Under the pieces are notes generated by a model. That model ran no database searches. It was given only the letters and a program-made list of their open reading frames with translations, and was not told where the DNA came from. A stretch of DNA of 64,000 nt from Halorhabdus sp. BNX81 (GTDB lineage Archaea; Halobacteriota; Halobacteria; Halobacteriales; Haloarculaceae), in contig NZ_CP107254.1 in NCBI RefSeq assembly GCF_029229925.1, positions 2,542,001-2,606,000 on the forward strand, read 5' to 3'. Numbering within the stretch: position 1 is the first letter of the stretch; every line of letters starts with the position of its first letter. The position numbers were made by a program, and so were the translations under genes. Below, one piece after another: positions 31,101 through 38,924 of the stretch.

Positions 31101-32333
31101 ATGAAGCTCCGGTTTCTGGGCGGCGCTGGCGAGGTGGGCCGGAGTGCGATCCTCGTCAACGAGTCGCTGCTGCTGGATTACGGGATGAAGACCGAGACCC
31201 CGCCGCAGTTTCCGGTCGGCACCGTCGAGCCCGAGGCCGCCGTCGCCTCCCACGGCCACCTCGATCACGTCGGCTCGATCCCGTCGCTGCTCTCGGGCGA
31301 TCGACGCCCGCCGATCCACTGGACGCCGCCGACCCGGGAACTCGCGCTGACGCTCGCCCGGGACACGCTGAAACTCCACGGCGGCACCTACGACTGCCCG
31401 TTCACGGAAGTCGACGTCAGGCGCGTCACGCAGGTCAGCGAGACCCACGGCTATCGCGAGTCCTTCGAGGCGGCCGGCCACGAGGTCACCTTCTTCAACG
31501 CCGGCCACATCCCCGGCAGCGCCCACGTCCTCGTCGACGACGGCGAGACGCGCCTGCTGTACACCGGCGATTTCCATACTGACAACCAACGCTTAGTCGC
31601 AGGCACGACCGCCCGCCCCGACGCGGACGTGGTGCTCACCGAGAGCACCTATTCGGACGTCTCCCACGAGGACCGGGCGACCCTCGAGGAGCGCTTCGCC
31701 GAGAGCGTCAAGACGGCGCTGTGGGAGGGCGGCACCGTCGTGATCCCCGCCTTCGCCATCGGTCGCACCCAGGAGATGCTCATGATCTGTGAAGCCCACG
31801 ACATCCCTTGCTACGTCGACGGGATGGGAAAGCAGGTGACGAAGATGCTCCGCCGGCATCCGGAGTTCGTCCGGGATTCCGACGCTCTCCAGCGCGCCAA
31901 ATCACACGCCCGGTTCGTCGACGGTCGCGACGGCCAGCGGAAACGCATCGCGGCACAGAACACGGCGATCGTCACCACCAGCGGGATGCTCAGCGGTGGC
32001 CCCGCGATGACCTACATCCCCGAAATTCGGGATCGGCCGGTCAACAAGATCGCGCTCACAGGGTATCAGGTCGAGGGGACGCCGGGCCGGGACCTGCTGG
32101 AGACGGGCAGCGCCGAGATCGACGGTCAGCGGATGCCAGTCGCCGCGCAGGTCGAGTCCTACGACTTCTCCGCGCACGCCGACCGGGACGGCCTGCACGC
32201 GTTTCTCGAATCCTACCGTGACACCCCGCTCCTTGTCAACCATGGGGACAAATGCGAGCAGTACGCGACCGAACTCGCCGGCGACGGTTTCGACGCGACG
32301 GCACCCTCGATCGGTGAGACGATCGACATCTGA
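31101..32333 (+). CDS. beta-CASP metallo-beta-lactamase RNase (aCPSF-like)
   Basis: 410 residues. Motifs in order: GGAGEVGRSAILV, metal motif ASHGHLDHVG, FFNAGHIPGS, YTGDFHTD, ESTYSD, beta-CASP AFAIGRTQEML, TTSGMLSGGPA, and C-terminal SYDFSAHADRDGLHAFL. No KH domains precede the core, as expected for aCPSF2-type or RNase J-type archaeal enzymes rather than aCPSF1. It probably cleaves RNA endonucleolytically or 5'-3' in mRNA turnover. It follows the MFS gene by 100 bp. Confidence 0.88.
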   Translation: MKLRFLGGAGEVGRSAILVNESLLLDYGMKTETPPQFPVGTVEPEAAVASHGHLDHVGSIPSLLSGDRRPPIHWTPPTRELALTLARDTLKLHGGTYDCPFTEVDVRRVTQVSETHGYRESFEAAGHEVTFFNAGHIPGSAHVLVDDGETRLLYTGDFHTDNQRLVAGTTARPDADVVLTESTYSDVSHEDRATLEERFAESVKTALWEGGTVVIPAFAIGRTQEMLMICEAHDIPCYVDGMGKQVTKMLRRHPEFVRDSDALQRAKSHARFVDGRDGQRKRIAAQNTAIVTTSGMLSGGPAMTYIPEIRDRPVNKIALTGYQVEGTPGRDLLETGSAEIDGQRMPVAAQVESYDFSAHADRDGLHAFLESYRDTPLLVNHGDKCEQYATELAGDGFDATAPSIGETIDI

Positions 32334-32351: not shown

Positions 32352-34637
32352 CTAAGAGCGAGACGAATCGGCACCGCGACCGCAATCGACCCCGTCGAAC
32401 GCCGACAGCGTCGCGTCCCGTTCGCCGGCGAGTGCGTCCCGGACGTCCGCGTCCGTCCAGTCCAGCGGGCCGAGGACGCCGACCGCGGCCCTGATCGCCG
32501 CCTCGCGGTAGTAGCCCGCGTCGTAGTCGCTCTCGTCGTCGATCTCCGACGCCAGCCGCACTCGGTCCATCCCCTCTCTGTCGTCGTCGCGAACGACGTA
32601 GACCACGTCTTGACCCGGCGCGTAGTCTAGCCCCATTGCCCCACCGCGCTCCAGCGCGGCGACGGTGCGGGTCCGGTGGGTGTAGGCGTCGACATCCTTC
32701 GAAGCGCGATTCCGGACGAGCAGGTCCGTCGTCGGGACATCGCCGGCCGCAAGAGTTGCGAGGTGGGCCGCGAGCGTGTCGATCACCGCGCTCGGATCGC
32801 GCGTCCCGTCGAACGTCTCGATGAGCGACCGCTGAAGCCCCGCGACCCACGCCGGGGTCGAGCGCTGCCGGCAGGCGAGCCCGCGAACCTTGAAGGGGTC
32901 GTCCCCGTCCGGATCGCGCCGACTGCCGAAGTACTTCGTCAGCGCCCCGCCCTCGCCGTCGCGTCGGGGGCAGAACGCCACCCAGTCGAAGGCCCCCTCG
33001 TGCTCCAGGGCGATCCCGACATCGTCGGTGATTTCCGCAGCGATAGGGTCGAGTGGCTCCTGGGTCGCCCCCTCGCGGGGCGTCACCCAGATCGAGTCGA
33101 CGATGCCGTGCAGGACCGACCAGCCGCCGGCTTCCAGGCGTTCTTTGGCCGAGAGGAGGACGTCGCGTGCGTGGGCGTTGATCGCCTCGTGGACCTCGAT
33201 CCGGCCGAACTTGGCGTTGCTGAACCCCTGATACCCGAAACACGAGACGAGGATCCACTTCAGGGCGTCCACTTGCCCGGAGAGTGCGCGTCGCTCGGCG
33301 GCCGAGAGGTCGTCCTCGGCCAGCCGGCGTTTCATCTCCGCACGGTCGTCGATGATCGGCTCGAGGACGTCGGGGAGATAGCCCTCGCGATCACAGACGG
33401 AATAGCCCAACTCGAGCACGTCCTCGCCATCGTGACACCCACACCGGACCGTCTCGGGCGAGAGATTGTGTTCGCAGATGATGTTGGGGTACATCGACGC
33501 GAAGTCGAGTTCGTGGACGGTGTCGTGAACGCCGACGATCGGTGAGAGCGTGGTTCCGCCCCGATCGGCGTCGTGGAGCGTCCGGGCGGTCTTGAACCGC
33601 TCCGGTCGCCAGGCCCGCCACTGGACGAGGACATCCCGCTTTCGGACGGCCCGGATCTGGATCGCCGTGAGCACATTGCCTATCGACGCCCAGGACAGTT
33701 CCTGCAGCGGCTTGCCCGACCGGGCAACGAGGTCGAGTGCCCCCGCGAGGTTCGTCTCGCCGAGGAAGAACGTGTTCGAACGGTCGATCACGACCCGGCC
33801 GGGGACGTTGTACCGCGCCGGGGAGTGCATCCGTCGCCCGTAGGACTCGAAGGTCGACGCCCCCGCGAGTTGCTGGACGGCCGGGATTTCGTCCCGCGAT
33901 TCACGGCTCGGGACGCGCTGGAGGCCGAGGTCGACGCCGTGCTCGGTGGCCGCCTCGTCGAGCAACGGGAGGATGTCACTCCGTTCGACCCAGAGAACGT
34001 CCGGGTCCTCGACCGCCAGCCGCCGCCGGAGCGTCGAAAGCGTCTCCTCGACGGTGTCGCCGGCCGGCTGCGTCGCCGCCGACGTGGGCTCGGCAGTGAC
34101 CGTCGGGGCCGTCGTTCGCGCGCCGATCGCCAGTGCGGTGAGATCGCCCGCAGCCGCGGCAGTCCGGGGCAGATCCAGCCGAAGGACGCGCGGGGGCCGC
34201 TCCGGCGTCGGATCGGTGCCGGTTTCCAGACAGTACCGGAACTCCGACGAGAAGTCCACGTCGAACGCCCGGAAGGGAACGCGACCGGGCGGCCCGCGAT
34301 CCTCGACGAAGCGGGCGACTTCCCGGACCGCATCGACCCGGTCGACGTCGATCCGGAGGACGGGCTGATCGGCAAAGCGAAACCCCGGCGACTTCCACTC
34401 GAAACGAAGGTCTGCAACCGCCGGATGCATGTCGAGATCCGCCCGGAGATCGTTCAAATCGGCGATGCAGGCCTCGCGGTCGGGGTCGCGGTCGGTCATC
34501 CCACGCGCCGCGACCGCGTACACCGTCGGGCGATACGCGGCCGCGCGCGACGCCGACCAGGACGGCTGCTCAACGGTGCCGTCGAGCGACCACACGAGCG
34601 GGTCGCCGTCGCCGAGGAAGTCGATCGTGAAGACCAT
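32352..34637 (-). CDS. polB2: family B DNA polymerase, PolB2-like
   Basis: 761 residues from ATG 34637; an in-frame GTG at 34652 overlaps the previous stop (GTGA). Motif A HELDFASMYPNII (Asp about 378), motif B KWILVSCFGYQGFSNAKFG, motif C HGIVDSIWV (Asp about 514). In motif C the usual first Asp of DTDS is replaced by Ile-Val, and canonical exonuclease motifs are not recognisable. These traits fit archaeal PolB2, a divergent polymerase linked to damage tolerance rather than bulk replication. It is the third gene of an operon with a RecA-like and a coiled-coil protein. Confidence 0.88.
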   Translation of the reverse strand: MVFTIDFLGDGDPLVWSLDGTVEQPSWSASRAAAYRPTVYAVAARGMTDRDPDREACIADLNDLRADLDMHPAVADLRFEWKSPGFRFADQPVLRIDVDRVDAVREVARFVEDRGPPGRVPFRAFDVDFSSEFRYCLETGTDPTPERPPRVLRLDLPRTAAAAGDLTALAIGARTTAPTVTAEPTSAATQPAGDTVEETLSTLRRRLAVEDPDVLWVERSDILPLLDEAATEHGVDLGLQRVPSRESRDEIPAVQQLAGASTFESYGRRMHSPARYNVPGRVVIDRSNTFFLGETNLAGALDLVARSGKPLQELSWASIGNVLTAIQIRAVRKRDVLVQWRAWRPERFKTARTLHDADRGGTTLSPIVGVHDTVHELDFASMYPNIICEHNLSPETVRCGCHDGEDVLELGYSVCDREGYLPDVLEPIIDDRAEMKRRLAEDDLSAAERRALSGQVDALKWILVSCFGYQGFSNAKFGRIEVHEAINAHARDVLLSAKERLEAGGWSVLHGIVDSIWVTPREGATQEPLDPIAAEITDDVGIALEHEGAFDWVAFCPRRDGEGGALTKYFGSRRDPDGDDPFKVRGLACRQRSTPAWVAGLQRSLIETFDGTRDPSAVIDTLAAHLATLAAGDVPTTDLLVRNRASKDVDAYTHRTRTVAALERGGAMGLDYAPGQDVVYVVRDDDREGMDRVRLASEIDDESDYDAGYYREAAIRAAVGVLGPLDWTDADVRDALAGERDATLSAFDGVDCGRGADSSRS

Positions 34638-34648
34638 CGCCCGAAATT

Positions 34649-35020
34649 TCACCCTGTTCTTTCGTGTGGAGATGTCCCATTCCCCGCCGAGATTTCGTCG
34701 GATTGGTGCCCGAGATCGTCGATCTGTGCTTCGAGGGCGTCGACGCGATCCGCCTGCTCGCCGATCTCCCCTTCGAGTTCGTCGAGTCGCGCTTCGAGCT
34801 CGTCGATCCGCCGTTCCTGGGCGAGCGCGATCGCGAGCAGGACCGGCACGATCGGGGAATGGTGGTTCAGGTTACCCGCCGCGTCGGCGTGCGTTCGGGC
34901 GTCCCCGAGGAGCTGATCGAAGCGCTGCTGGTCCTCGTAGCGCAACGCCCGCCGGAAGGGGGCCCAGCGGTCCTCGACCGACCGGAGCACGTCCCGGAAC
35001 GTGGGGTTGGTCCGTCCCAT
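34649..35020 (-). CDS. coiled-coil protein of polB2 operon
   Basis: About 123 residues from ATG 35020 (MGRTNPTFRDVLRSVEDRW); a GTG at 35029 overlaps the upstream stop. The N-terminal half is helical (RRALRYEDQQRFDQLLGDARTHAD) and contains LNHHSPIVPVLLAIALAQERR; the C-terminal half is a heptad-repeat coiled coil (IDELEARLDELEGEIGEQ). I recall this protein as a regular companion of haloarchaeal PolB2. It may bridge polymerase and RecA-like protein; this is inference. Confidence 0.7.
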   Translation of the reverse strand: MGRTNPTFRDVLRSVEDRWAPFRRALRYEDQQRFDQLLGDARTHADAAGNLNHHSPIVPVLLAIALAQERRIDELEARLDELEGEIGEQADRVDALEAQIDDLGHQSDEISAGNGTSPHERTG

Positions 35021-35025
35021 CGTGG

Positions 35026-35970
35026 TCACCTGATTGCCGCCGGCCCGATAGTGAGTGACTGTGCGGTCGATCCGGATCCACTTGCCCCGACGGAGCCGCC
35101 GGACGCGAGAGAGGGATGCCGAGCCCGGAGGATCTCCGCCCAGTAGGTGATCGTCGTCTGGTGGACGCCCTCCTCAACGCGGTAGACCAGCGTCTCGAAG
35201 TCGAGGTCGTCGCACTCGAATCGGGGGCCGAACTGGGTTTCTTCGAGGGCGATCGTCGTGGCAGCCGCCTCGATCGGAGCCGCGTCGCCGGGGTCCCTGG
35301 ACCGCGTCAGCACGACCGGGATGTCGTGCTCGCGGGCGATCGCAGCGAGGGTCGCCAGCGAATGGGAGAGAAGGCGTCCGGCGTCGCCATCCCGGAGTTC
35401 CCCCTTGCGATAGAGCGCGTCGAGTGCCGGGGCGACGACAATTGCGGGGCGGTCCGTCGCCGGCGCGCCGAAGGGCGAATCGCCATCGCTGTCGTCGGCC
35501 AGCCACCGGCCGAGTTGCTCGACCAAGGTGTAGTGCTGGTGGGTCGTGAACGCGCGGGCGACGTGGACGCGATCGAGCGCACGCTCGGCGGGGGCGACGC
35601 GGGCGAAGGCGTGCGTCGTGGCGTGGCCCCCCGCGTCGACCCAGACAACGTCGCCGCCCGCCGAGAGCGCGGTATCGAGTGCGAGCGCGTGAAGCGGGCC
35701 GACGACGGCATCGCGTCGCGATCTCGCGGTTCCCACGTCGGGTTCCAGCAGATAGAGGTCGTCTTCGAGCGTCGGGAGTTCCGGGAGGGCGAGGCCGTCG
35801 GCAACGTCCACGGCGGTCGCCGCGTCGTCGATTCCGCCACTGGATCGTTGTCGGGCACGCTGGCCCGGGAGGTCCTCGCGACTCGAACCCGGCCATCGTG
35901 GATCGCTGAACGACGATCCGCCTCGCCGGCTGTCCGCTCCCATCCGTCCGGTGATCGCGTCGTGTTCCAT
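35026..35970 (-). CDS. RecA/Rad51-superfamily protein without Walker A
   Basis: 314 residues from ATG 35970. VVWVDAGGHATTHAFARVAP followed by VARAFTTHQHYTLVEQL mirrors the RadA/RadB stretch IDTEGTF...VARAYNSDHQ, and PAIVVAPALDALYRKGEL ... IPVVLTRS mirrors the Walker B and L2-flanking region. No GxxxxGKT P-loop is present, so it likely does not hydrolyse ATP. It heads the polB2 operon, a situation similar in logic to ImuA with ImuB/DnaE2 in bacteria. CCGGAAAC motifs precede it. Confidence 0.72.
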   Translation of the reverse strand: MEHDAITGRMGADSRRGGSSFSDPRWPGSSREDLPGQRARQRSSGGIDDAATAVDVADGLALPELPTLEDDLYLLEPDVGTARSRRDAVVGPLHALALDTALSAGGDVVWVDAGGHATTHAFARVAPAERALDRVHVARAFTTHQHYTLVEQLGRWLADDSDGDSPFGAPATDRPAIVVAPALDALYRKGELRDGDAGRLLSHSLATLAAIAREHDIPVVLTRSRDPGDAAPIEAAATTIALEETQFGPRFECDDLDFETLVYRVEEGVHQTTITYWAEILRARHPSLASGGSVGASGSGSTAQSLTIGPAAIR

Positions 35971-36020
35971 ACGACAACGATCCGCCGGGACCGTCAAACC
36001 GACTGGTGTGTCGTTTCATG

Positions 36021-36123
36021 GTTTCCGGATCGGCCGAAAACAGGGTGAAACCGGGTGACTGCACCGCTATCGGCGTCGTTTCCGGGTCGGTTCCGGATGC
36101 CGGGCCGCCATGCGGGTTTCCGG
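36021..36123 (-). promoter_or_regulatory. CCGGAAAC motif cluster upstream of polB2 operon
   Basis: On the minus strand CCGGAAAC occurs exactly at 36116-36123, 36078-36085 and 36021-36028, with a one-mismatch copy at 36089-36096. All lie in the 169-bp gap before the RecA-like gene. The extended 12-mer CCCGGAAACGAC (36075-36086) is also found upstream of the Orc1/Cdc6 gene. A shared binding protein is inferred. Confidence 0.6.
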
Positions 36124-36139
36124 AAGCGTCACATGCGAC

Positions 36140-37702
36140 TCACTCCCAGAGGTCCTCGATCCCGACCCGGATCGTGACCGGCCCGTCGGGCGATTCGAGG
36201 ATCACGGGCGAGCGATCCGCGATGTCTCCCGCTATACTGACCTCGTACGTCGGGGTTTCGAGGCGCACGGTCCCGACGCCGGGCTCGAGCAGGCCGATGG
36301 CGTTCCGGAGCCCCGTCGCGTAATCGACAGTCATGATCTGTTCCGGGAGGACTCGCTCGTCGGTCTCGGCCTCTGGGGCGCGCTCGACGGTGAGCCGGTG
36401 GTTCCGCCGGCTGGTGTCGACCTCGGGATGGACCGCCTCGATGGTGTCACCGCCGCGTTCGATGGACAGATCCGTGGCCGGCGTCACCGCGACCGGGTCG
36501 CCGTCGAGTTCGAGTAGCGCCGCGTAGCAGCGGTACGTGTCCTCGAACATGAGGTCACGCGCGTAGGCGTACAGCCCCGGCCCGAGGTACGGAACCGTCC
36601 GCCGGTAGCTGTCGTCCGTGTCGTCGAATCCGGGCGGACCGCCGAGCCGCCGCCCGTTGAACAGTGTATGTGTTTTCCGAGCGATGCTCCCGGGCTGGAG
36701 CGATCCCCCTGGCAGCGGAATGTTCTGGGGTGCAATATGATACCACATGTCGTCGTGCAATTTGTACAGTCCCCAGTTGTACGGGTTGAGCCCGAACGCC
36801 TGCTCGACGGTGTGATTGACGAGCGTGAAGTCAACCCGTAGCGGGAGGGTTCCCGCCTCCGTCTCCGGGTGGAGGAAAACCGGCGTCTCGGGACCGGCCT
36901 CGTGGTACCAGACCCTCTTAGTCACGTCTTCGCGGGCGGGGGGCGGCGGCGGGACGTCCCGGCCCGCGTGGATGGATTCCTCGCTCGGCCCGGGCGCTGT
37001 CCGGTCCCAGATGCCGATCGACAGGTGGACTTCGGAGGTGTCGGCGGTGCTGTATCGCCCGGGGACGGGCACTCGGCCGTCAAACTCGACGGTGTCGGCG
37101 ACGAGCGCCCACTGCCCGTAGATGGTCTGGCCCGGGGCAAGGCGCAGGTAGTCCGGAATATCATGATCGGCGTGCTCCCGGACCCGCCAGACGCCCTCGC
37201 CGTCGCGGTGGAACGACGACTCCCTGTCGGCGAAGTCGTGTGCCGCCGTCGGCTCCAGCAGATGCACAAAGTCACGTTCCCTGCCCGGGATCGACACGTC
37301 CAGATAGCCGTCCGGCCGGAACCAGCCGGTCCCGTCGAACAGCGAGAGCTCCTCGAAGGCGATCACGCGCTCGAAGTCGCCCTCGTTGGTGAGCGTCCCC
37401 TCGACGAGCGCGGGGCCGTCGGCGTCCGGTTCCGAGACGAACTGGAAGCTGTCCCACAACCACTCCTCGTCACCGCCCCCACCGCCCGCGCCCAGCGCGT
37501 AGACCCGGTCGGTGGCCGCGGCCGTCACGAGCTGCGAGCCCTCCGCCTGGAACGGTTCGCGCTCCGGGTCAGGCTCGGGCGGGGTCACCACCGTCGGCCC
37601 CGCGACGGTCGTCGTTGCCCCAGGCGTCTCGTCGCTCGCGGGGGCCGTACACCCGGCCAGCCCGGCGGCGAGGACCGTCCCGAGGAAGGTACGCCGGCGC
37701 AT
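36140..37702 (-). CDS. large Tat lipoprotein, unknown function
   Basis: 520 residues. RRRTFLGTVLAAGLAGCTAP is a Tat signal with lipobox. The body has beta-rich segments (QFVSEPDADGPALVEGTL ... LVNHTVEQAFGLNPYNWGLY) and many Trp/Tyr residues but no enzyme motif I recognise. Repeated mentions of hydrogen-bonding loops (PGPGLYAYARD-like, VEQAFGLNPY) suggest an Ig-like extracellular protein. It sits between the polB2 and cdc6 units on the same strand but with over 130-bp gaps. Confidence 0.65.
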   Translation of the reverse strand: MRRRTFLGTVLAAGLAGCTAPASDETPGATTTVAGPTVVTPPEPDPEREPFQAEGSQLVTAAATDRVYALGAGGGGGDEEWLWDSFQFVSEPDADGPALVEGTLTNEGDFERVIAFEELSLFDGTGWFRPDGYLDVSIPGRERDFVHLLEPTAAHDFADRESSFHRDGEGVWRVREHADHDIPDYLRLAPGQTIYGQWALVADTVEFDGRVPVPGRYSTADTSEVHLSIGIWDRTAPGPSEESIHAGRDVPPPPPAREDVTKRVWYHEAGPETPVFLHPETEAGTLPLRVDFTLVNHTVEQAFGLNPYNWGLYKLHDDMWYHIAPQNIPLPGGSLQPGSIARKTHTLFNGRRLGGPPGFDDTDDSYRRTVPYLGPGLYAYARDLMFEDTYRCYAALLELDGDPVAVTPATDLSIERGGDTIEAVHPEVDTSRRNHRLTVERAPEAETDERVLPEQIMTVDYATGLRNAIGLLEPGVGTVRLETPTYEVSIAGDIADRSPVILESPDGPVTIRVGIEDLWE

Positions 37703-37839: not shown

Positions 37840-38850
37840 CTACTCCTCGGCGATGACGCGATACGTCCGGGTCGGGCCACTCCCGTCGGCCTCGACCAGG
37901 TTGTACTGTTCGAGTTTCTGGAGCCACGACCGGACCGTCCGCTTCGTCCGGGGATCCGTGACCGCCGCGACGTAGCGATCGTAGACCTCCCGCGGCGGGA
38001 GCCCGTCGCTCTTCTGGAGGATTTCGAATACTTTCCGTTGCTCCTTGTGCAGTGCGTCGAGGGCCCGCGACCGGACCTCCTGGCGGGCTTCGGGAATCGC
38101 GGCCTCGATGTGGGACGCGGCGATGGCATCGGCACCGTCGCGGTCGGCCCGCCGTGCGGCACTCCGGAGGATGCTCAACCCGACCCGGGCGTCGCCGGCG
38201 GCGGCGTCGGCGATCCAGCGAAGCTGGTCGAAGTCGACGGCATCAGCGGAAAGCCCGTGGTCGACGCGGTCGGCCATGATGTCGGTCAGCTCGTCGACGT
38301 CGTAGCGGTCGAAGTGGATCGTCTGGGCAGTGTGAAGCCGGGAGCGGACGCGCTCGTCGAGGCCGGCCAGCAGTTCCTCCTCGTCGTTGGTGATCAGGAC
38401 GACGGCGAAGGCGGGGAGGCGATAGAGGTCATAGATCAGGTGGCCGTCTTCGAGCTGGTCGACCTCGTCGAGCGTGACGATCACCGGCGGGCCGTCGTAG
38501 GCTTCGAGCCGATCGAGGAGTTCGTCGTGGGGCGTCGACTGGCGGTGGACGTCGATCGTCCGGCCGAGACCCTCGAGAATCCGGTAAAGGGCTTTGAATC
38601 TGGTATACGATTGCCAGCAGTTGACGTGGATCGACTCGACGTCGAGGGCGGTCTCCCGGAGGCGGCCGACGACGAACTTCGCGATGGTGGTCTTGCCGGC
38701 TCCCGAGGGGCCCGTGAGCAGCGCGGACTCGGGCGGCTGGCCCTCGACGACCGGTTCGAGGACGGCCGAGAGCGCGTCGACCTCGCCGTCGCGGTGGACG
38801 ACGTCGTTCGGGACGAACTCCTCGCGGAGCACGCGGGCGTCCTCGATCAT
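37840..38850 (-). CDS. cdc6: Orc1/Cdc6-family replication initiator
   Basis: 336 residues. AAA+ core: Walker A GPSGAGKTT (about 47-55), Walker B VIVTLDEVDQL, sensor I VVLITND, sensor II region DARVGLSILRSAA; then a winged-helix domain (KVFEILQKSDGLPPREVYDR, RTVRSWLQKLEQYNLVEA). Length is slightly short for a main haloarchaeal Orc1 but complete. These proteins bind origin recognition boxes and start replication, or act as regulators in multi-copy sets. Iterated CCGGAAAC motifs and an AT-rich stretch lie directly upstream. Confidence 0.92.
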   Translation of the reverse strand: MIEDARVLREEFVPNDVVHRDGEVDALSAVLEPVVEGQPPESALLTGPSGAGKTTIAKFVVGRLRETALDVESIHVNCWQSYTRFKALYRILEGLGRTIDVHRQSTPHDELLDRLEAYDGPPVIVTLDEVDQLEDGHLIYDLYRLPAFAVVLITNDEEELLAGLDERVRSRLHTAQTIHFDRYDVDELTDIMADRVDHGLSADAVDFDQLRWIADAAAGDARVGLSILRSAARRADRDGADAIAASHIEAAIPEARQEVRSRALDALHKEQRKVFEILQKSDGLPPREVYDRYVAAVTDPRTKRTVRSWLQKLEQYNLVEADGSGPTRTYRVIAEE

Positions 38851-38890
38851 CAGGCGACGATTTCGCGGCGAGCGTCATAAGCGGCCGGGG

Positions 38891-38924
38891 GTCGTTTCCG
38901 GGTTTCCGAGTTTCTAGTTTCCGG
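38891..38924 (-). repeat. four tandem CCGGAAAC-type iterons upstream of cdc6
   Basis: Reading the minus strand: CCGGAAAC, TAGAAAC, TCGGAAAC, CCGGAAAC in direct succession with 7-8 bp spacing (38917-38924, 38910-38916, 38902-38909, 38894-38901). They start 41 bp before the cdc6 ATG. The GGAAAC core is shared with haloarchaeal origin recognition boxes. Followed further upstream by AT-rich DNA (38989-39032). Confidence 0.6.

Follow-up and report, generated by a model that had tools for sequence, protein, structure and literature searches.

Three genes on the minus strand of the 2.83 Mb haloarchaeal genome of Halorhabdus sp. BNX81, which together fill positions 32352-35970 of the 64,000 nucleotide (nt) stretch of contig NZ_CP107254.1 analyzed here (hereafter, the window), raise two questions, namely, which system they encode and what controls it. 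An initial annotation of this region, made from the sequence alone, recognized a divergent PolB2 polymerase with a changed motif C, a coiled-coil protein and an ATPase-dead RecA relative, and proposed an archaeal translesion complex with the logic of the bacterial ImuA-ImuB-DnaE2 mutasomes. The trio is the haloarchaeal PolB2 mutasome, the proteins and operon of which have already been described and are not new. As the best overall explanation of the locus, we consider it highly probable that this mutasome is controlled together with a paralogue of Orc1/Cdc6 through a shared operator; the promoter signal common to the mutasome operon and the linked orc paralogue is, as far as the literature was searched, new.

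Identity and conservation of the iRadA-PPB2-PolB2 genes

PolB2 (32352..34652, minus strand; 766 amino acids (aa), GTG start) is a B-family DNA polymerase, as indicated by the NCBIfam profile NF004418 (PRK05761 subfamily; 1160.7 bits, cut-off 692), by Pfam DNA_pol_B (E = 1.6e-19) and by its motif columns; the closest named relative by this protein is Halorhabdus amylolytica (73% identity). It is preceded by the gene for PPB2 (34649..35020, minus strand), a small helical and coiled-coil protein of the arCOG07300 family that was recognized by profile search and by its conserved start, MGRTNPTFRD, and by the gene for iRadA (35026..35970, minus strand; 314 aa), a relative of RadA/Rad51 that lacks both Walker motifs (A and B), assigned by profile, alignment and fold match. 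The conserved MGRT places the start of PPB2 at ATG 35020 rather than at GTG 35029, with the gene ending at 34649, and the best start of iRadA, which ends at 35026, is ATG 35970. The PolB2 and PPB2 genes overlap by 4 nt and those of iRadA and PPB2 are a few nt apart; this tight packing suggests that the three genes are co-transcribed.

For comparison, 64 PolB2 loci were fetched, mostly one per genus among the matches listed, with some second copies and four further loci; together with the window these make 65 loci, two of which repeat the same contigs, which leaves 63 distinct ones. A profile search detected PolB2 in 65, PPB2 in 61 and iRadA in 60 of these loci (63, 59 and 58, respectively, of the distinct ones). 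All 59 PPB2 genes share the strand of PolB2 and 50 of them lie within 100 nt of it, the other nine being found at 0.7-4.5 kb. The linkage of iRadA, PPB2 and PolB2 is far above chance.

In all 65 aligned PolB2 sequences, the window and the two repeated loci included, the first Asp of motif C is replaced by Ile or Leu (HG[I/L]VDS; HGIVDS in the window). Such a loss would be compatible with PolB2 being a relic that has lost its catalytic activity and is kept for a structural role or for regulating replication; inactivation was predicted in earlier papers (PMC4104785), and polB2 is reported to be dispensable in Halobacterium NRC-1 and Haloferax volcanii. However, the motif A Asp (D383; ELDFASMYPN in the window), the second motif C Asp (D519), Lys465 of motif B and the K-x-R-G stretch are each invariant (65/65), and Sulfolobus Dpo2, which has Ile in place of the first Asp, is still an active extender, described in Sulfolobus islandicus as extending efficiently from mispaired and lesion-facing ends, so that a dead enzyme appears unlikely. 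The structure model of PolB2 is unusable (predicted local distance difference test score, pLDDT, of 43), also for judging whether the exonuclease domain is decayed. The C-terminus of the window PolB2 (32352-32430, minus strand) carries ATLSAF, which resembles a degenerate PCNA-binding motif with the Gln replaced. This loose class (xx[LIVM]xx[FYW], Q replaced) is present in 54 of the 63 PolB2 C-termini (shuffled mean 9.2, largest 17 in 300 shuffles) and in 16 of 56 iRadA (shuffled mean 3.1, largest 9), and we retain it only as a hint. The strict clamp-binding motif, Qxx[LIVM]xx[FYW][FYWL], was considered as well and rejected, being found in only one of the 63 PolB2 and none of the 56 iRadA C-termini.

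Sixty iRadA were found, three of which, short or odd frames, were set aside; in all of the remaining 57, each of at least 200 aa, the Walker A motif ([AG]x4GK[ST]), which marks an active RadA/RadB recombinase, is absent. The genome's own RadA retains the P-loop GEFGAGKS. The alignment of iRadA with RadA begins beyond the P-loop; at Walker B, APA of iRadA stands opposite VDS of RadA, the Asp being replaced as well. Single-sequence matches of iRadA are weak (Rad51, E = 0.006; RadB, E = 1e-4), with similarity to RadB, Dmc1 and RadA. A profile of five iRadA matches RadA, Rad51, RAD51D, Dmc1 and RadB among the solved structures (best match RadA, E = 4.4e-6), the remaining rows, at E = 0.09 or worse, being designed barrels and a peptidase. 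The AlphaFold model of iRadA is of low confidence (pLDDT 49) and the best matches of its core are RadA/Rad51 (Z 13-14 over about 140-157 residues); taken jointly with the sequence, this weak model supports a RadA/Rad51 fold, and iRadA appears to be a RadA/Rad51 derivative. PPB2 yields many weak coiled-coil matches because its C-terminus is a coiled coil, and its N-terminus is strongly conserved (MGRT in 54 of 61, VGRT in 4 and MGRS in 3).

These findings confirm the observations of the initial annotation: its coordinates and gene order are correct, with the limit at 35970 being exactly the best start of iRadA; the change that it noted in motif C is universal among the aligned PolB2; and its description of an ATPase-dead RecA relative agrees with the absent Walker A, the replaced Walker B and RadA/Rad51 as the best relatives. 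It had also named two observations that would count against it, a P-loop in close homologues of the RecA-like protein and a lack of conserved linkage; the P-loop was sought in the 57 iRadA and found in none, and PPB2 and iRadA accompany PolB2 in 59 and 58, respectively, of the 63 distinct loci.

PolB2 is present in 192 of the 292 genomes searched (E = 1e-20) and in 110 PLSDB plasmid records. The polB2 gene on pNRC200 of Halobacterium is preceded by an IS200/IS605 transposase gene. A viral origin of PolB2 was considered and rejected: no match was found in the viral contig set, and the only phage matches are four Leptospira records, with about 31% identity.

A promoter signal shared with an orc paralogue

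The second question, that of control, is addressed by a signal of fixed geometry that precedes both iRadA, in many genomes, and a family of close Orc1/Cdc6 paralogues, a member of which is often encoded directly upstream of the mutasome operon. The signal consists of a pair of GGAA repeats with a period of 8 or 9 nt, followed after 14 nt by a TATA-like box (BTTAW), with about 25 nt from there to the start codon (GGAA-N4/5-GGAA-N14-TATA-like). This layout is as expected for leaderless haloarchaeal transcripts. In the window, the full operator and its TATA-like box, GGAAACCCGGAAACGACCCCCGGCCGCTTAT, lie at 38877..38907 (minus strand; strict pattern match), 26 nt before ATG 38850 of the gene for an Orc1/Cdc6 paralogue (37840..38850, minus strand; 336 aa). 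The counterpart before the mutasome operon, at 35996..36026 (minus strand), 25 nt before ATG 35970, is degenerate (GGAA-N4-TGAA-N14-GGTTT); its pattern was written after the site had been seen and hence is no test.

On the sense strand, GGAA-N4/5-GGAA occurs in 23 of 55 iRadA upstream regions (1 on the antisense strand; Markov mean 1.1, largest 5 in 200 runs) and in 13 of 28 orc upstream regions (2 antisense; Markov mean 0.27, largest 3). Aligned at the start codon, the orc upstream regions show weak per-column information content because the distance between site and start varies by one to several nt, and a matrix was used instead. This matrix, built from 29 orc-promoter sites alone, scores above threshold (the 99th percentile of the Markov null) in 38 of the 55 iRadA upstream regions, compared to 2 of 55 on the antisense strand, and most of the sites that it finds before iRadA are separated from an in-frame start by exactly 25 nt. 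Part of the score stems from the TATA-like box, which is possibly common to any promoter. This box is not the whole cause, because the strict pattern GGAAN{4,5}GGAAN{13,14}BTTAW is nearly absent elsewhere in the organism's own genome, where its single match is the one before the window orc gene and a reversed-pattern control gives none.

Across the class, at least one strict match is present in 97 of 194 genomes, and a sum made by hand gives about 159 matches, compared to 58 with the pattern reversed. Among 30 loci that were not self-chosen, 17 of 30 strict matches have orc, iRadA or PolB2 within 80 nt downstream. In 60 regions picked as genuine-looking, 52 of the 69 strict sites are followed by a gene of the orc, iRadA, PPB2 or PolB2 family, in most cases after 25-29 nt; the signal is also found before stand-alone iRadA-PPB2 operons, a stand-alone PolB2 (one locus) and a stand-alone PPB2 (two loci).

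The other 17 of these 69 sites precede none of the four families. Five of them have an open reading frame (ORF) with a phage-integrase domain about 0.2-1 kb downstream; this may reflect capture of the host operator by integrative elements, or mere chance. In three others of the 17, an orc-type operator is kept before an apparently decayed orc gene, with a weak orc match in only one of these. In another locus, a radical SAM gene, itself followed by an ORF of about 400 aa, begins about 110 nt after an operator-like match.

Could the repeats be replication origin elements that happen to lie beside an orc gene? The core of the signal, CGGAAAC(GA), resembles the oriC1 repeat of this genome, CGAAACGAAGGGG, and elements similar to the origin recognition box (ORB) are commonly reported beside haloarchaeal orc/cdc6 genes, one of which, TAACAGCGGAAACAGTGGGG, shares CGGAAAC. 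An origin role is nonetheless very unlikely: the repeats keep a fixed spacing of 14 nt to a TATA-like box and of about 25 nt to the start in two different genes, they also stand before iRadA, PolB2 and PPB2 in places where no orc gene follows directly, and they are not followed by the G-string of the ORB. A promoter operator remains the preferred reading, and the haloarchaeal operon and the Orc1/Cdc6 paralogue would be jointly controlled by this element just upstream of the TATA-like box. No prior description of this operator was found in the open-access literature searched, a body that excludes supplements and most subscription papers.

The Orc1/Cdc6 paralogue as candidate reader

The window paralogue matches TIGR02928 at 196.9 bits (cut-off 181.3) and has intact Walker A and B motifs; by the patterns used, all 28 of its close homologues have Walker A and 27 of the 28 have Walker B. 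In the 194 genomes, PolB2 and the orc paralogue occur together in 102, PolB2 only in 24, the orc paralogue only in 23 and neither in 45 (Fisher p = 1e-10, uncorrected for kinship). The strict motif is associated with the orc paralogue, which is present in 73 of the 97 genomes with the motif and in 52 of the 97 without it (p = 0.003); of the 45 genomes with neither gene, 14 have a strict match, consistent with chance.

The Orc paralogue, which would then be autoregulated, is our favored candidate for the reader of the operator, because it carries the signal more regularly than any other gene, its Walker A and B motifs are kept, the core of the signal is ORB-like, and Orc1-2 of Sulfolobus, a non-initiator Orc protein, is reported to bind its own promoter. 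As in Orc1-2-type regulators, the AAA+ motifs are intact and a site is found in the paralogue's own promoter and in that of the PolB2 operon (the latter degenerate in the window); the ANTTTC site of such regulators is not found in the shared signal. By analogy with its Sulfolobus counterpart, the paralogue might switch on mutagenic bypass upon DNA damage.

Several observations weigh against joint control by the paralogue. About one third of the strict matches are expected by chance; 17 of the 55 iRadA upstream regions contain no significant matrix site; and the iRadA operator of the window falls below the matrix threshold, as do those at the same place in two Halorhabdus relatives. The association of the strict motif with PolB2 is not significant (68 of 97 genomes with the motif, 58 of 97 without; p = 0.18). 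The terms polB, orc and cdc6 do not appear in the main text of two Halobacterium ultraviolet (UV) array papers, and the published haloarchaeal UV-B motif, TTTCACTTTCA (PMC2556686), which likewise is a repeat and precedes the TATA box in UV-induced genes, is unrelated to the GGAA signal in sequence and in the genes that it precedes (radA1, top6B, vng17 and vng280). Furthermore, PolB2 occurs in the absence of a close orc paralogue in 24 of the 194 genomes, 10 of which hold the strict motif all the same, and the operator lacks the G-string of the ORB. The latter facts would fit a PolB2 mutasome with an unlinked transcription factor as the reader of the signal, the Orc paralogue being merely another target. 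We regard this as possible, if rather doubtful: no gene carries the motif as regularly as orc does, the strict motif is present in 15 of the 23 genomes that have the orc paralogue only, as autoregulation predicts, and, as noted, Sulfolobus Orc1-2 binds its own promoter.

Neighboring genes, known systems and implications

A lipoprotein-like gene (36140-37702) sits between orc and iRadA; its participation in the system was ruled out, as it is present only in the window and the two Halorhabdus relatives among the 65 loci. On the other side, a beta-CASP metallo-hydrolase gene (31101-32333, plus strand) is convergent with PolB2 and ends 19 nt from its stop codon; the protein matches the models of aCPSF1 and of Cas14 of type VII CRISPR, in both cases below the cut-offs.

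The gene set was described by Makarova 2014 (PMC4104785), and Timinskas 2025 (PMC11791011) modeled the complex as PolB2, iRadA and three copies of PPB2. The window trio has the gene-level and sequence features reported there for the PolB2 mutasomes of archaea and bacteria: iRadA and PPB2 genes beside polB2 in the same order, an orc1/cdc6 gene nearby, an altered DxD in the polymerase, a RadA relative devoid of ATPase motifs, with a dead ATPase site, and the MGRT arm of PPB2. No difference is apparent in the proteins; what the portions of the 2025 paper that were consulted do not mention is the promoter signal common with the orc paralogue. According to the published model, PolB2 would extend primers beyond lesions, held at the damaged DNA by the N-terminal arm of PPB2 and by the ATPase-dead iRadA, which would dock at the place of a RadA filament subunit; the Halorhabdus proteins presumably form the same complex. 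The archaeal translesion complex proposed in the initial annotation accordingly agrees with the published view and with the experiments on the Sulfolobus polymerase; the system was already described, and the account left out both the Orc1/Cdc6 neighbor and the promoter signal.

The likeness to ImuA-ImuB-DnaE2 that was also proposed holds, at most, as a works-alike analogy. Both are operons of a polymerase and a RecA-like accessory protein, which in the bacterial case serve damage-induced mutagenesis, but the bacterial polymerases are C-family DnaE2 and Y-family ImuB, whereas the proteins of the window operon match B-family polymerase and RadA families and not those of C- or Y-family polymerases; the operon contains no DnaE2 or Y-family partner, and iRadA differs in being derived from RadA/Rad51. 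ImuA is absent from the NCBIfam matches of iRadA (E up to 1) and from the structure matches listed, an absence that proves nothing in itself. The comparison made in print is with Escherichia coli Pol V (UmuC-UmuD'2-RecA), which shares a polymerase, a small oligomeric partner and a RecA-fold subunit docked as in the filament (Timinskas 2025, PMC11791011) and differs in its Y-family polymerase, active RecA and control by LexA.

With respect to control, the closest parallel is the Orc1-2 damage regulon of S. islandicus, with its non-initiator Orc1/Cdc6, a site in its own promoter and a PolB2 (Dpo2) that is reported to be damage-inducible and responsible for targeted mutagenesis. The site there is ANTTTC, in contrast to GGAA-N4/5-GGAA here, and the haloarchaeal target set looks much smaller.

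The PolB2 mutasome is thereby confirmed as widespread and conserved in haloarchaea. We tentatively propose, as a plausible scenario that falls somewhat short of an even chance, that haloarchaea possess a compact SOS-like circuit in which a non-initiator Orc paralogue would read GGAA-N4/5-GGAA-N14-TATA-N25-start at its own promoter and at that of iRadA-PPB2-PolB2, also across contigs, and turn on mutagenic bypass, with the operator possibly captured by some elements with phage-type integrases. With a defined site of 31-32 bp, a named candidate regulator and a short predicted list of targets, the control of mutagenic bypass in archaea outside Sulfolobus becomes directly testable.

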